This document shows positions 53,675-59,854 of a stretch of 64,000 bases of DNA, one piece after another. How positions within the stretch are numbered: the stretch's first letter is position 1; every line of letters begins with the position of its first letter. Made by a program: the position numbers and the translations under genes. Under the pieces are notes generated by a model. It worked only from the letters and a program-made list of their open reading frames with translations. It was not told where the DNA came from and searched no databases. Source of the DNA: Tolypothrix brevis GSE-NOS-MK-07-07A (GTDB taxonomy: Bacteria; Cyanobacteriota; Cyanobacteriia; Cyanobacteriales; Nostocaceae); the NCBI GenBank assembly GCA_019358985.1, contig JAHHIJ010000019.1:1-64000 (forward strand). The letters are read 5' to 3'.

Positions 53675-54403
53675 TTAAATCCGTTCATTAATAGGCAAAC
53701 ATTTAATCTGCTCAATTAAGCAAGAATAACGCTGCCAAATCGGCGTTATCCTCTTTGGATCATTTATATCTAACTTATAGATTTTGCAATATAAAATAAA
53801 CCAACCAAGATACTTCAAATTTTGTTGTTCATGACTATTTAAAACCTTAAATTTATTAATAATCTCAGTATGATTAGGAATTTTGTTGTTATCTTTGGAA
53901 TCTAATCCTTGATGACTCTTTTGAAACTGTTCCTCAACTTTGCGCTTGTAGTCTTCGCCTTCACACTTTATTTTTTGAATTAGCTCTCCATATAAACTCA
54001 TTATTTTCTTAAACTGTTCTGTCAGATCGCACTTGTACTCTTTGTCTTTAAGCTTTATTTTTTGAATTAGCTCTCCATATAAAATACTTATGTCATGTTT
54101 TTGAGAAGGAGAAGTATCAGGTAAGTAATAGTAATATAAGTTTAAGAAATTGATAATATAAAATAAATTCCAATTTTGTTCATCATCTAATCGAGACATT
54201 AGAGATGTTATGGTTTCTTCTATTAATGAGGAAACCATATCTGCTACCAAATTTACTATATTTCCTATAGATTTACCTACCTCAACAAATACAATTGTGG
54301 ATTCTTCTCCGGTTGATGTGGAGCTTGCACCGGGGATGGAAATCCGAGAATTATGAACAATATCACTATTACTCCCACTATCACCATTATGATTATGCGC
54401 CAA
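53675..54403 (-). CDS. Helical protein at the end of the GTPase cluster
   Basis: 242 residues if started at 54403. The first 50 (HNHNGDSGSNSDIVHNS...) overlap the preceding gene by 127 bp in another frame. An internal ATG at 54238 gives 187 residues and avoids the overlap. A repeated segment SLYGELIQKIK.K..EYK...EQFKK / SLYGELIQKIKCEGEDYKRKVEEQF suggests a duplicated helical hairpin. No enzyme motif or family recognised. Last gene of a four-gene minus-strand set. Confidence 0.6.
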   Translation of the reverse strand: MAHNHNGDSGSNSDIVHNSRISIPGASSTSTGEESTIVFVEVGKSIGNIVNLVADMVSSLIEETITSLMSRLDDEQNWNLFYIINFLNLYYYYLPDTSPSQKHDISILYGELIQKIKLKDKEYKCDLTEQFKKIMSLYGELIQKIKCEGEDYKRKVEEQFQKSHQGLDSKDNNKIPNHTEIINKFKVLNSHEQQNLKYLGWFILYCKIYKLDINDPKRITPIWQRYSCLIEQIKCLPINERI

Positions 54404-55236
54404 GAAGTTGGAATTGGCTGATGAGGTATTTGAGTTTGTTCTGCTGGTAGTGTCGGCACGAGTGGCAATGTTTCCGTTTTTTTTTGCGGTAATTCATCTA
54501 CTACTTTTACAGGTTCTTCTACATTAGTTGCAAAACCTCTCCAGACTCCAGCTTCGTGCAGAATAGTTCTTTTTTCTAAATTTTCTGTGACAACAATTAA
54601 AACGCCATCGTTTTTTATTTCTCCATCCCAATTCACCCATTGTTTAGGTAGGGGATAATTTCGGAGTTCTTCTGCCAATTTCTCTAAACTTTCAGACGAT
54701 TTATGTTCTATTTGATATTCTTGATATGATTCTATATCAAGAATATCAACTGGTTCAAGATGCCCAATATATTCGTTAACTTCTTTTAGATTGACTCGAA
54801 ATTCTTCTAGTCCATAGAATTCTACTGATTTCTCAATCATTCCACTAAAGGAGAAATCTTTCTGTAAAATATTCTGGATTGCACTATAAGCAATCTTTCG
54901 TAAGACTACTTCATTTTCTTCTGTATCATCAGCTATCCAAACCATAGAATTGAAAACTTTTCGTCCCAGTCTAATAGAGCGTTGGGGTGATTCAATTCCT
55001 GTAATTTCTAATAGAAGCTTTTCGTTATCCTTATTTCTAAATATAAGTAGGGAGGGTTTAACTTCATTAATTAAATCGTTAACAATAGCTATTTGACCAT
55101 TTTTTTCTTCTATAACTTGACGTTTTATCAAACTAGGAACTTCTACAGGTTGACGTTCTTCACTCTCGATATGACGCCAGTGAATGCCTGTCTGACCTAG
55201 TGCTGAAGTTTTAACATAAATTTCAAAGTTACTCAT
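54277..55236 (-). CDS. Membrane-anchored protein of the GTPase cluster
   Basis: 319 residues. The N-terminal region (MSNFEIYVKTSALGQTGIHWRHIESEERQPV...) looks like a beta-rich soluble domain and includes VFNSMVWIADDTEENEVVLRKIAYSAIQNIL. Near the C-terminus one strong transmembrane helix (WRIIIMVIVGVIVILFIILGF) anchors it, with a short tail. No family is certain; the position beside a P-loop protein suggests a GTPase-associated adaptor. It starts 24 bp after the upstream gene. Confidence 0.65.
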   Translation of the reverse strand: MSNFEIYVKTSALGQTGIHWRHIESEERQPVEVPSLIKRQVIEEKNGQIAIVNDLINEVKPSLLIFRNKDNEKLLLEITGIESPQRSIRLGRKVFNSMVWIADDTEENEVVLRKIAYSAIQNILQKDFSFSGMIEKSVEFYGLEEFRVNLKEVNEYIGHLEPVDILDIESYQEYQIEHKSSESLEKLAEELRNYPLPKQWVNWDGEIKNDGVLIVVTENLEKRTILHEAGVWRGFATNVEEPVKVVDELPQKKTETLPLVPTLPAEQTQIPHQPIPTSWRIIIMVIVGVIVILFIILGFPSPVQAPHQPEKNPQLYLLR

Positions 55237-55259
55237 AACTCAACTATCCTTGTTGCTTA

Positions 55260-56537
55260 CTAAAAAATAGACTGGGGTAAATTGAACCATTTATGCCCTT
55301 GAACAATCGCAAACCCATCATTATTTTTACAGCCGATCGCAAATTTATATAAGGCATTGTTGAATGCATTAATTTCTTCTTGAGTTGCTTGAACTTTGAG
55401 CGAAGTTGACTCAACATTTGATTGGGTTTCTTGAAAATCAACTTGTTTTTGGTCAAATTGCTCTTTCGCTGTATAGTACGGTGATTCTCTATCATCAAAG
55501 ATATTGAATATAGCTCTAGTTAGCCACCATCTATTATTACGTTGATTGAAGAGTCTTTGTTTTTCATCAAATTCTCTTTTTGCATTGTCTAGCTTACTTT
55601 TATCCCTACCAAGCTCACTTGTAAGTGTTTCAAACTTCTGTTGTTCTTTTTTAAGAATTTCTTTTTTCTTTTCTAAGAAAACATTAATGAGAAACAATAA
55701 AATATATCGCAGAGGTTGATCGCCATCTTTAGGTTCGTAGGGAGCATTAATAGGAGTTTTATGGTAGTAAAACTTAGTATACCCATCGTTATCAGTCTTG
55801 GCATAACTAAAAACTACATTTCCAATAGTTTGGACTGGAGCTATTACTACAGCTACCTTATCAATTAAAGAATCTGATTTAAAAAAATTGAGTAATTCAC
55901 CATATCCGATTCTGACATGGTATAGTAGGCTCTCTGCATCTCTAGGTGTTTTAGTATAGGTTTCGCACTTGACAGGAGCTAAAATCACTAGTCTAGGCGA
56001 TTTTACATTAGTATAAGCATCTTTTAATAGTTGAGTAATGCGCTGAGAACTATTTTTTTCTTCATGCCATGTGCCGATTTCTGCATTATTTACCTTTCCC
56101 GTCTTTTTTTGCATGAGTGCAGTAGCATCAATAGGAATTACTACAGCATCACATTCATTTAGCTGTCTTTTAACATATTGTCTTTGTTCATCTGACGCAT
56201 TTGGATTAAAGTATTCACCAGAGGGATCAGTGAACCTCAATTTCATAAACTTTTTTCCACTACTACCAAGCTCAAAGCTGAAACCTTGGTCACTCCAAGG
56301 GTTGTCTTTCGGCTGTGTAGGAGTAACTTTATTTTCTAATTTTGCATCTATATTTTTCAAGACAGACTTACATTCTTCTATGGCACGTAATGTATTGTTA
56401 TCATCTACGAAAGTTTGGAGATTAGCTCTCTCGAAAGTTTTGTGAAATTCTTCGTGCATGGCTGCTAAAAGACTGGTTTTACCCATTCCTCTGAGAGCAA
56501 CCATAATGATTTTTAATTCTTCATTTCCATCTGTCAT
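55260..56537 (-). CDS. P-loop GTPase/ATPase-like protein with a coiled coil
   Basis: 425 residues. Walker A is ALRGMGKTSLLAAM at residues 14-27. A DPSGEYF segment matches a G3/Walker-B-like position, and VILAPVKCE sits where a G4-type base-recognition motif would fall but does not match NKxD. The C-terminal third is coiled coil (EKKKEILKKEQQKFETLTSELGRDKSKLDNAKREFDEKQR) and another stretch near 370-400. It may belong to the GTPase families found in bacterial conflict systems; not confirmed. It begins about 380 bp downstream of the dynamin-like gene. Confidence 0.72.
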   Translation of the reverse strand: MTDGNEELKIIMVALRGMGKTSLLAAMHEEFHKTFERANLQTFVDDNNTLRAIEECKSVLKNIDAKLENKVTPTQPKDNPWSDQGFSFELGSSGKKFMKLRFTDPSGEYFNPNASDEQRQYVKRQLNECDAVVIPIDATALMQKKTGKVNNAEIGTWHEEKNSSQRITQLLKDAYTNVKSPRLVILAPVKCETYTKTPRDAESLLYHVRIGYGELLNFFKSDSLIDKVAVVIAPVQTIGNVVFSYAKTDNDGYTKFYYHKTPINAPYEPKDGDQPLRYILLFLINVFLEKKKEILKKEQQKFETLTSELGRDKSKLDNAKREFDEKQRLFNQRNNRWWLTRAIFNIFDDRESPYYTAKEQFDQKQVDFQETQSNVESTSLKVQATQEEINAFNNALYKFAIGCKNNDGFAIVQGHKWFNLPQSIF

Positions 56538-56915
56538 AATTTCTCCTTAGAGGTTGTTTGAAAAGTGGTATGTTATGATACTAATCGAATGATTACCCCC
56601 CTTAATCCCCCCTTATAAAGGGGGGAAACAAGAAAATCCGGTTCCCTCCCCTTTACAAGGGCAGGGTTAGGGTGGGGTAATTCGAGAACTGGTAGTGATT
56701 CGATAACTTGTGTGTACACCGTAGCCTTATAAAGGGGGGAAACAAGAAAATCCGGTTCCCTCCCCTTTGTAAGGGGAGGGTTAGGGTGGGGTAAAAGAAT
56801 TATAAAGGGGGGAAACAAGAAAATCCGGTTCCCTCCCCTTACAAAGGGGAGGGTTAGGGTGGGGTAAAAGAATATTTAATACATTAATCATGACTTTTCA
56901 AACATCCTCTTACTA
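56538..56915. repeat. Three copies of a 68-bp repeat between the two P-loop genes
   Basis: Units at 56611-56680, 56725-56794 and 56800-56867, each TATAAAGGGGGGAAACAAGA...TCCCTCCCCTTT..AAGGG.AGGGTTAGGGTGGGGTAA. The arms GGGGGGAAAC / GTTCCCTCCCC can pair. The repeat fills the spacer between the dynamin-like gene and the next gene of the cluster. Confidence 0.8.
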
Positions 56916-59168
56916 CTATTGAGCTAAATTAAAAGATTCAAGTTGATTAACTAGAGTAACTTGATTAACTGATTCCAGCCATTGTTTTCTCATCTCTCTA
57001 TCCCTTTCTTTTTTGCCAAAAATGTCTGACCATATCTTTCCCCGAAGTCCCCTGAGAAAATTTTTCCATTCTTTTTGAATGTCTTTTTGACGAATGATGT
57101 TATCAATAAATTCCTCTACCATTGCATGGGTAGCTTCATTGGGTTCACACAGCAATTCCTCTATGGCTGGTTTAATAGTATTAATTGCTTTATCATAATC
57201 GATTTCCAGAGCCGTTAAAATGTCTTCAGCGGTTGTATCTTTAGAAACTGTAAGTGTTTTATCTTGTTGTTCCGAAATTCCTCCTGATTGACCAGTCATA
57301 GCACTAATATTAGTCAGTCCGTCTAAGTGTTGACGAATACGAGGAAGAATTAACCCACGATATGATAATTGAAAGCCTGCTATGATTTTAAATCCGGCTT
57401 TTAGCTTTGTAAAACGCTCTGGTATCAGTTCAGATATTTCAGTAAAAAACTCTGAACCTTCAATATTGCTGATAATGCCTAAACGTCCTTTTTCTTTTAA
57501 AAGATCAACAACCTGATTTTTAACTAACTCCACTGTCCGCTTGAGGTTTTCATCTAAAGATAAGAAACGATGAGAGATAAATACCCTCAGTTCATCCTGA
57601 TAATCAGGATAAGTTCTGAATGCACTACTAATCATAATTCGATCATTAATCTCTTGTAGAGCATTTTCTGATGATAAAATACCTTTATCTCGTTCACAAT
57701 TTTCAATAGCAGCAATGACACCATTATGTAACTCTTCATTGGGAGTTTGACGCAGATACCAAAGCTGTGTTCTCAGTCCTTGAAGTCCTAATGCAACGTC
57801 TTTCCACCAACCACTATCATTATCTCCGAATAAGTCGCTAAAGAGTTCTTCAGTTTCTTGAGAATCGTCTTCTAAACTTTGATTAAAGACAGTTTTTGCT
57901 TTGTTTAATTCAGCATTGACGATTTTATTAATTTCTAATAAACGTTCTTGACAAGCCGAAGTGTATTGTTGATCAAGGATATTCATATTATTAGTTAAAT
58001 AATCCAAAACTTGATCTAAAAGTTGAGTTGCTTCTGTGTCATTACCACAGTTAGCAATCAAAGATTTTTCTACCTTAATATGTTTTTCTTCTACTGTATC
58101 TAATAAATCTTGGCAATTTTTCAAATTATCGCCATTATTTGATTCAGCATTAGTCCTATTAAGTACCACAAATGACCATAAGTTAACTGGTAAATCCGTT
58201 AAAGCTGAACGAGCCGTATCGTATAACTTAACATCTACATCTGCCCAATAATCCCCGGCAGATTTAGGCATTCTTACAAATAAAACAAAGTCAATATCTT
58301 TTCCTAATGCTTGAATTAACCTTTCTTCATCTCCAAGTCCTGTATCTCCTAAACCTGGCATATCTACTAAAGCAATTTTCCCAATATCAACATTCGGGAA
58401 TGTGCAGGTAATTTTTACTTCTTTAACCGCTAAATAGTTAAATAAAATTCGTTGACCATCAAGAGTATCTTGAGAAACATATTCTCGAATCTGATGTTTC
58501 TGAATAATTCGAGGGGAAGTTTCTCTGAAGAGATGACGATATTGATCTAGATGAGTATGATATCGCTTTAAGTGTTCATACATTGCCCCAGGTGCTGCAT
58601 AACCAGGGATATCTTGAGGTAATGGTGGTAAAGGTTTATTGGCAAATTCTTCTAAAGTGATCGGTTTTATGCCTAAATGAAGTTTTTCATAATAAGGAGT
58701 AATCACCTCATCTAAAAACGATCGCTCTGTATGAAACCACACCTCTCCATAAGTATCCACATTGGGGTTATGGTGAATTATACTCCGAACGCCTGTACAA
58801 TGTTGCCGATCGCCATCAGGGATTTCGGCTGCACTTAATCTGGTTAAACTTTGCAGGAGACGGCTTTTTCCTTGTCTAGCACGTCCCACTACACCTATAT
58901 TGAGAGTATCGCGAGAAAAACGGTTTTTCAGCTTAGTTAAGGCTTCTAACTCAGAGGCAATAGTCAACTGAATGTTAGAAAAACTAATCTCTTCAAGTTT
59001 CCCAATAACATTCGGATCATCAACTTGTTTTAAAAGGTGATTGCGGTACTGCTCCACTTGATGCAAGGCTGTGGAAAGAGTTTTCAAGTTCCCCTCTACC
59101 AGTTGAATCCTCTGAGCAAGGGGTTTACGCTTCTCAAGAATGTTAGTAATGAGTGTGGTTCTGTCCAT
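56916..59168 (-). CDS. Dynamin-family GTPase
   Basis: 750 residues. G1 is GVVGRARQGKSRLLQSL (residues about 88-104), a Thr of the switch I region lies in RQHCTGVRS, G3 is LVDMPGLGD and G4-like is LNRTNAE. Helical stalk segments follow. At the C-terminus is a basic/acidic helical end. Dynamin-like proteins remodel membranes, and some bacterial ones act in phage defence. The G4 motif is not a canonical NKxD, so nucleotide choice is unproven. First gene of a minus-strand set with 55260, 54277 and 53675. Regulation is not visible. Confidence 0.82.
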   Translation of the reverse strand: MDRTTLITNILEKRKPLAQRIQLVEGNLKTLSTALHQVEQYRNHLLKQVDDPNVIGKLEEISFSNIQLTIASELEALTKLKNRFSRDTLNIGVVGRARQGKSRLLQSLTRLSAAEIPDGDRQHCTGVRSIIHHNPNVDTYGEVWFHTERSFLDEVITPYYEKLHLGIKPITLEEFANKPLPPLPQDIPGYAAPGAMYEHLKRYHTHLDQYRHLFRETSPRIIQKHQIREYVSQDTLDGQRILFNYLAVKEVKITCTFPNVDIGKIALVDMPGLGDTGLGDEERLIQALGKDIDFVLFVRMPKSAGDYWADVDVKLYDTARSALTDLPVNLWSFVVLNRTNAESNNGDNLKNCQDLLDTVEEKHIKVEKSLIANCGNDTEATQLLDQVLDYLTNNMNILDQQYTSACQERLLEINKIVNAELNKAKTVFNQSLEDDSQETEELFSDLFGDNDSGWWKDVALGLQGLRTQLWYLRQTPNEELHNGVIAAIENCERDKGILSSENALQEINDRIMISSAFRTYPDYQDELRVFISHRFLSLDENLKRTVELVKNQVVDLLKEKGRLGIISNIEGSEFFTEISELIPERFTKLKAGFKIIAGFQLSYRGLILPRIRQHLDGLTNISAMTGQSGGISEQQDKTLTVSKDTTAEDILTALEIDYDKAINTIKPAIEELLCEPNEATHAMVEEFIDNIIRQKDIQKEWKNFLRGLRGKIWSDIFGKKERDREMRKQWLESVNQVTLVNQLESFNLAQ

Positions 59169-59239: not shown

Positions 59240-59854
59240 TCACTCTTTTGCCAACACACCATTAAGAAATATATCAGCGAGTCCTTCTGCCATTTGTTGC
59301 ATTTCTTGAGGAGAAGCATCAGGTTCCATTAAGGTATTATTGGAAAAGCCAGCGATCGCAAACATTCCTAAAAAAACTTTGGCAACCAGTTTAGCATTCG
59401 TTTGGCGATAGATGCCTTTATCCATCGCACTTTGAAAGAAAGCTTCGGCAACATCGCTCATTTTATCAATGACTTCTAATTGAATGCGATCGCGCAAATC
59501 TGGGTGAAACTGCGCTTCTAAAAAACAAACTCGCATCAAATCGACATTTTTGTGCATATTCCACATCCGCCGGCGCATCACTTGTGCGATCGCCTTATAA
59601 CTGCCCATTTCACTCAATTCTGTCAGCAAATCTGTCAGAATCTCTACCCAGCCGTTAGTTGCTACCTCAATCAAAATCGCCTTTTTATTAGGAAAATGAC
59701 GAAACAAAGTACCTTCCGCTACACTCGCTGCCTGGGCTAAATCGCGGGTAGTCGTACCGTCAAATCCCTGTGAAGCAAACAGCCGCAGTGCTGCGCTTAA
59801 AATGCGGGTACGGGTTTGTGCCTCAGCAGGTGGGGAAGAATTAAAAACTCGCAT
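59240..59854 (-). CDS. TetR/AcrR-family regulator
   Basis: 204 residues. The N-terminal HTH reads RTRILSAALRLFASQGFDGTTTRDLAQAASVAEGTLFRHFPNKKAIL, complete TetR signature. The C-terminal ligand-binding part is all-helical with no recognised effector site. It lies upstream of the dynamin-like gene on the same strand, 71 bp apart, so it could control that cluster or itself. The target is not visible. Confidence 0.9.
   Translation of the reverse strand: MRVFNSSPPAEAQTRTRILSAALRLFASQGFDGTTTRDLAQAASVAEGTLFRHFPNKKAILIEVATNGWVEILTDLLTELSEMGSYKAIAQVMRRRMWNMHKNVDLMRVCFLEAQFHPDLRDRIQLEVIDKMSDVAEAFFQSAMDKGIYRQTNAKLVAKVFLGMFAIAGFSNNTLMEPDASPQEMQQMAEGLADIFLNGVLAKE

Follow-up and report, generated by a model that had tools for sequence, protein, structure and literature searches.

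A dynamin-like GTPase, a DO-GTPase2-family GTPase and a membrane-anchored protein form a conserved three-gene unit in cyanobacteria

Introduction

Two P-loop proteins, a protein with a predicted membrane helix and a helical protein are encoded side by side in the cyanobacterium Tolypothrix brevis GSE-NOS-MK-07-07A, which raises the question of whether these four genes belong together and, if so, what kind of system they form. The initial annotation, made from the DNA letters and the open reading frames, proposed a four-gene cluster that could be a new variant of the GTPase-centred conflict modules and act at the membrane. We followed up this proposal for the 64,000-nucleotide stretch of contig JAHHIJ010000019.1 that contains the genes (the window) and for related loci in other genomes.

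Results

Layout of the locus

The ORF coordinates within the window place all four genes, named A to D, on the minus strand in the order A-B-C-D (Table 1). The single direction and the reality of the ORFs in the proposed cluster therefore stand, but the conserved unit is the three genes A-B-C, and D is an accessory outside this core. The gap between A and B contains a MITE-like element with three 73-nt internal repeats. In the closest relative this gap is 15 bp long and without the insertion; fragments of the element occur elsewhere in the assembly, with no second full copy in it. Two flanking genes were ruled out as parts of the system: a TetR gene upstream of A (59240-59854), which only the same-genus locus shares, and a downstream DUF4332 gene, which is on the opposite strand and recurs only in the same-genus locus. 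Elsewhere in the assembly, an 80-aa ORF (G000:C27:8568-8756; L190 3539-3781) matches A over its first 63 residues only and is perhaps a remnant of a second module.

Table 1 Features of the locus (window coordinates)
Feature	Position	Strand	Description
Gene A	56916..59168	-	750 aa, dynamin-superfamily GTPase; from Foldseek, Dynamin_N and motifs
MITE-like insertion, A/B gap	56549..56910	.	362 bp, 18-nt terminal inverted repeats; outside the module
Gene B	55260..56537	-	425 aa, long form, DO-GTPase2-family switch GTPase; PF19993
Coiled-coil insertion of B	55362..55673	-	about residues 288-392; missing in short-form B (alignment)
Gene C	54277..55236	-	319 aa; ~240 conserved residues at the N-terminus and a membrane anchor at the C-terminus
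Predicted membrane helix of C	54343..54408	-	residues 277-298; AF2 helix and hydrophobic IIIMVIVGVIVILFIILGF
Gene D	53675..54238	-	187 aa with corrected start; accessory, helical; accompanies long-form B
Tandem duplication in D	53919..54091	-	two 86-nt copies, 78% identical; 29 aa

Genes A and B encode two different GTPases

The dynamin-like GTPase proposed for A was borne out. Its P-loop GRARQGKS (residues 95-102) and the DMPGLGD motif (269-275) are followed by a long helical remainder, and its AF2 model (pLDDT 85.6) retrieved BDLP (9e-12, probability 1.00), SynDLP (2.8e-11) and IniA (4.6e-11) in Foldseek. Dynamin_N matched all 15 members of the A family that were searched (best 2.4e-10), with a weak match, below cut-off, for the window protein alone (0.0011). 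As judged from the predicted model, A is a dynamin-superfamily protein with a GTPase domain, a helical bundle and a stalk; by analogy with this superfamily, it would be expected to hydrolyze GTP and assemble on membranes.

Gene B encodes the P-loop/coiled-coil protein described initially, with RGMGKTS and DPSGEYF in place and a coiled-coil insertion that the alignment delimits. PF19993 (DO-GTPase2) matched residues 18-193 with 8.4e-13 and 48.9 bits, against a curated Pfam cut-off of 27, and 17 of 18 family members also matched, so that by profile B is a member of the DO-GTPase2 family. It is the sole DO-GTPase2 gene found in the assembly. PDB sequence searches with A, B and C gave nothing strong; the FtsY and Rab6 matches of B were rejected as weak P-loop matches.

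The motifs of both proteins are kept across 58 loci. In A, G-x3-QGKS is present in 57/57 ungapped rows and DxPGLGD in 58/58; in B, GK[TS] is found in 57/57, and APVKCE keeps its P, C and E in 58/58. The window B has Ala for the first Gly of the P-loop, as do 16 of the 58 loci and the long-form alignment rows. The earlier remark that neither P-loop protein has a canonical NKxD is literally correct, but a conserved site stays at that place in both: an invariant Asn without the Asp at the G4 place of A (58/58), and AP[VI][KR]CE-type residues, a degenerate TKxD, in B. These patterns suggest that A and B are nucleotide binders with relaxed base recognition.

Gene C encodes a predicted membrane-anchored protein family

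The AF2 model of C (pLDDT 82.5) shows a mixed alpha/beta N-terminal part and the C-terminal membrane helix that the initial annotation had assigned to it; most C members have such a helix. The tails differ by host and comprise a bare helix, proline-rich or coiled-coil segments, WD40, Ig-like He_PIG repeats or pentapeptide repeats. No named family for C was found in Pfam, NCBIfam or PADLOC, and C is thus a protein family that is now delimited and has no description in the libraries searched. Matches to POPDC, Collectrin, Imm68 and similar Pfam families were discarded, being below cut-offs and inconsistent between members. Among PDB structures, FNIP2, the Lst4 longin and a roadblock-longin protein were in the top 7, none of them significant (best match E 0.037, TM-scores 0.2-0.4), so a longin-type GTPase regulator is a suggestive lead only.

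The family of B was described for predicted GTPase-centric conflict systems, in which GAP1-N2 systems combine DO-GTPases with a GAP1 protein that often ends in membrane helices, sometimes with cadherin, and have vWA or kinase neighbors (Kaur et al. 2020, PMC7159879). The triad might accordingly be an ordinary GAP1-type system, with C a shortened GAP1 that has diverged strongly and A in the place of the second GTPase, as the membrane helix of C and the Ig-like repeats attached to it in one locus would allow. However, none of 18 C proteins matched a Pfam model of GAP1-N, -M or -C, even with E values up to 1 admitted, GAP1-M is absent from 194 cyanobacterial genomes, and dynamin is not mentioned by Kaur et al. 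The other component of such systems was not seen either: D and the other tail genes match neither GASH (type 1) nor the FNIII-repeat protein (type 2), and all-against-all clustering gave no gene common to the loci that could correspond to them. With no GAP1, GASH or FNIII component found, the triad does not appear to be a GAP1 system, and we consider this explanation improbable.

Gene D accompanies the long form of B

The ORF of D spans 242 aa from a TTG inside C; most homologues begin just past the C stop, and D therefore more likely starts at the ATG at 54238. The D protein is helical and matched no known family. The duplicated segment reported initially is present, but it is shared only with the closest relative, Plectonema radiosum NIES-515 (L038), and is missing in other D proteins. 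The loci contain 18 long and 62 short forms of B, and a single-sequence search found D in 8/18 long-form and 0/62 short-form loci (p 1.5e-6). Since the long-form B proteins probably make up one clade, this link may reflect a single event. That D binds the coiled coil of B is a natural guess.

A, B and C are inherited together

The initial annotation suggested a neighborhood survey for conserved gene order, and noted that the idea would fall if the genes failed to co-occur elsewhere or each belonged to a well-known unrelated family. No such family was matched, and the survey found A, B and C together, in the same order, across loci from two phyla. An even sample of 292 cyanobacterial genomes contained 22 with full B, all of which (22/22) also have full A, and one further genome has a divergent A only; carriers thus make up ~8% of the sample. 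In 59 related genomes A is just upstream and C just downstream of B, with two exceptions, one locus without a detected C and one with a diverged C.

A scan of 84,980 species yielded 80 kept loci, essentially all cyanobacterial; two contigs are labelled Chloroflexaceae, one of which equals in size a contig filed under Cyanobacteriales. Where the sequence allows, A is present at 66/75 loci (59 within 300 bp) and C at 74/76 (69 within 400 bp). A, B and C are the only families that all-against-all clustering placed in more than 8 of the 80 loci, and their pairwise divergences are correlated (rho 0.55 for A-B, 0.79 for B-C and 0.64 for A-C; permutation maximum 0.24). The A-B-C order recurs in Nonomuraea (673, 291 and 60 bits) and on a Streptomyces plasmid (A 278 bits, B hhalign 1e-18, a C-like gene 1e-5). 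Accidental proximity of the four genes in the window could be entertained for D, which is confined to one subgroup, and the upstream TetR gene is likewise a neighbor that recurs only at the same-genus locus. For A, B and C it is refuted by an order kept in dozens of distinct genomic places in two phyla, and as an account of the whole cluster it retains almost no probability. A-B-C is a conserved three-gene unit of many cyanobacteria and two actinobacteria, beyond chance.

The module occupies varied genomic places, is patchily present, has plasmid copies and occurs twice in several hosts. Neither phage records nor viral contigs yielded relatives of B. In the plasmid records of Nostoc and Streptomyces that we examined, the module genes are annotated only as 'hypothetical protein', and open papers, to which our literature search was confined, contain no earlier account of the triad; a prior description in subscription papers or preprints, outside that scope, is possible. 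In the Okeania/Hydrocoleum group (L103, L114, L117, L099, L105, L106), A was not found near B, and in L103, L114 and L117 the B-C distance is 1.4-2.8 kb, which suggests decay or rewiring of the module in this group.

Effector-type domains are attached in some loci

Several loci carry fusions or neighbors of the types known from conflict systems. A is fused to AAA_35 in one locus (L078) and to AAA_35 and HEPN_Swt1 in another (L087); in a third, a CHAT domain replaces the G domain of A and the C-terminal helical part is retained (L107 5985-7925). B is fused to a Ser/Thr kinase in L115. Genes downstream of the module across loci encode AAA_35-vWA, vWA, CHAT-TPR and kinase proteins. Such domains were seen at a minority of the loci, and they are widespread in filamentous cyanobacteria as a group; no enzymatic effector is linked in the window or in most short-form loci. 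Downstream in L107 are a vWA gene and a NACHT-pentapeptide gene. Upstream of the module in Nonomuraea gerenzanensis (L148 87-10182), on the same strand, we noticed a LuxR-type AAA regulator, a caspase gene and a 1566-aa CHAT-TPR gene.

Discussion

What could the triad do? Because A, B and C are co-inherited and often stand beside cell-death or immune-type domains, they are probably a membrane-linked immune system. We infer a conflict role and action at the membrane from genomics: the PF19993 match of B, the co-occurrence of A and C, the helix of C and the conflict-type fusions all support the initially proposed new variant of a GTPase-centred module. Our preferred reading, which we hold with some confidence, is that A-B-C is a GTP-switched, membrane-tethered conflict module, probably anti-phage or acting by altruistic death, and, among the GTPase-centric systems, a new variant that contains a dynamin. 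The kind of system to which we assign it is itself still a prediction.

In the scheme we infer, the three proteins would form a physical complex, with the C-terminal helix of C anchoring it in the membrane and its cytosolic part holding both GTPases there. The variable C tail or a neighboring gene would serve as sensor or effector, and B would be the switch that sets the threshold. Upon a trigger, an invasion or membrane-damage signal, the nucleotide state of B would change and A would then assemble on the membrane, either remodeling or sealing it directly or scaffolding the activation of a linked effector where one exists; the outcome would be protective. As the window lacks a linked enzymatic effector, A itself, with D bound to the coiled coil of B, would most likely be the output there. 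More broadly, the triad might stand for a separate class of bacterial immune machinery, in which a small switch GTPase and a membrane adaptor license a dynamin to assemble on the membrane, and HEPN RNases, CHAT or caspase proteases and kinases are plugged in as fusions or neighbors, in parallel with the immunity GTPases Mx, IRG and GBP; this wider idea is tentative, and we would sooner doubt it than rely on it.

Alternatively, A-B-C might repair or stabilize the plasma or thylakoid membrane under stress, with the immune-type domains only as regulators. In structure the A model comes closest to BDLP, SynDLP and IniA, and such a role has been suggested for bacterial dynamins such as IniA and SynDLP; most loci also lack an enzymatic effector, and one DO-GTPase has been connected with phage-shock operons of membrane stress (PMC11237479). 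However, being rare (a small fraction of cyanobacterial genomes), mobile, plasmid-borne and attached to HEPN, CHAT and caspase domains, the module has a pattern unlike that of housekeeping genes, and we regard membrane maintenance as rather unlikely.

How does the proposed conflict module compare with known systems? With the DO-GTPase/GAP1 systems it shares a DO-GTPase2 member, the combination of two GTPases with a third component anchored in the membrane, attached domains that vary (vWA and kinases among them) and a patchy, mobile distribution, and C resembles membrane-anchored GAP1 in role. Their logic, a constant switch and coordinator with exchangeable sensors and effectors (PMC7159879), is also seen here: the core is constant, and the effector-like components vary and are often associated with the membrane. 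The triad differs in having a dynamin as its second GTPase and a C protein that cannot be detected as GAP1, and in lacking zinc ribbons and a GASH or FNIII component. It is also common in cyanobacteria, from which DO-GTPase/GAP1 systems were reported nearly absent (PMC7159879). If our reading is true, GTPase-switched conflict systems extend to this phylum, and bacterial dynamins and switch-GTPase immunity, until now separate themes, meet in one operon, offering a defined three-protein unit for studying how a dynamin is triggered at a bacterial membrane.

Eleos (LeoA/LeoBC) is likewise an anti-phage system centred on dynamin-like GTPases, and some A proteins match it weakly to moderately (best members 5.6e-9 to LeoBC and 1.9e-6 to LeoA; the window protein 0.024 to LeoBC). 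Eleos has LeoA and LeoBC side by side, whereas A is partnered by the small switch DO-GTPase B and the membrane adaptor C, with no second dynamin. BDLP, SynDLP, IniA and DynA, the last of which delays phage lysis and gives population-level phage protection (PMC8844932), share the fold of A, but no association of these dynamins with a DO-GTPase and a C-type adaptor is known. The MoxR-vWA ternary conflict systems have a similar switch/coordinator/variable effector logic and overlap in linked vWA and kinase genes; unlike these, the A-B-C core has no MoxR, VMAP or vWA.

A 992-aa Stanieria protein beside an A homologue was rejected both as a C (hhalign probability 0.2) and as a GAP1 (no GAP1 model matched). 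On a Stanieria plasmid (L152 5734-13640) and a Nostoc plasmid (L153 389-8379), A-like dynamins are found with DO-GTPase-like genes replacing B, together with large unnamed partner genes, which suggests that dynamins pair with DO-GTPases more widely.
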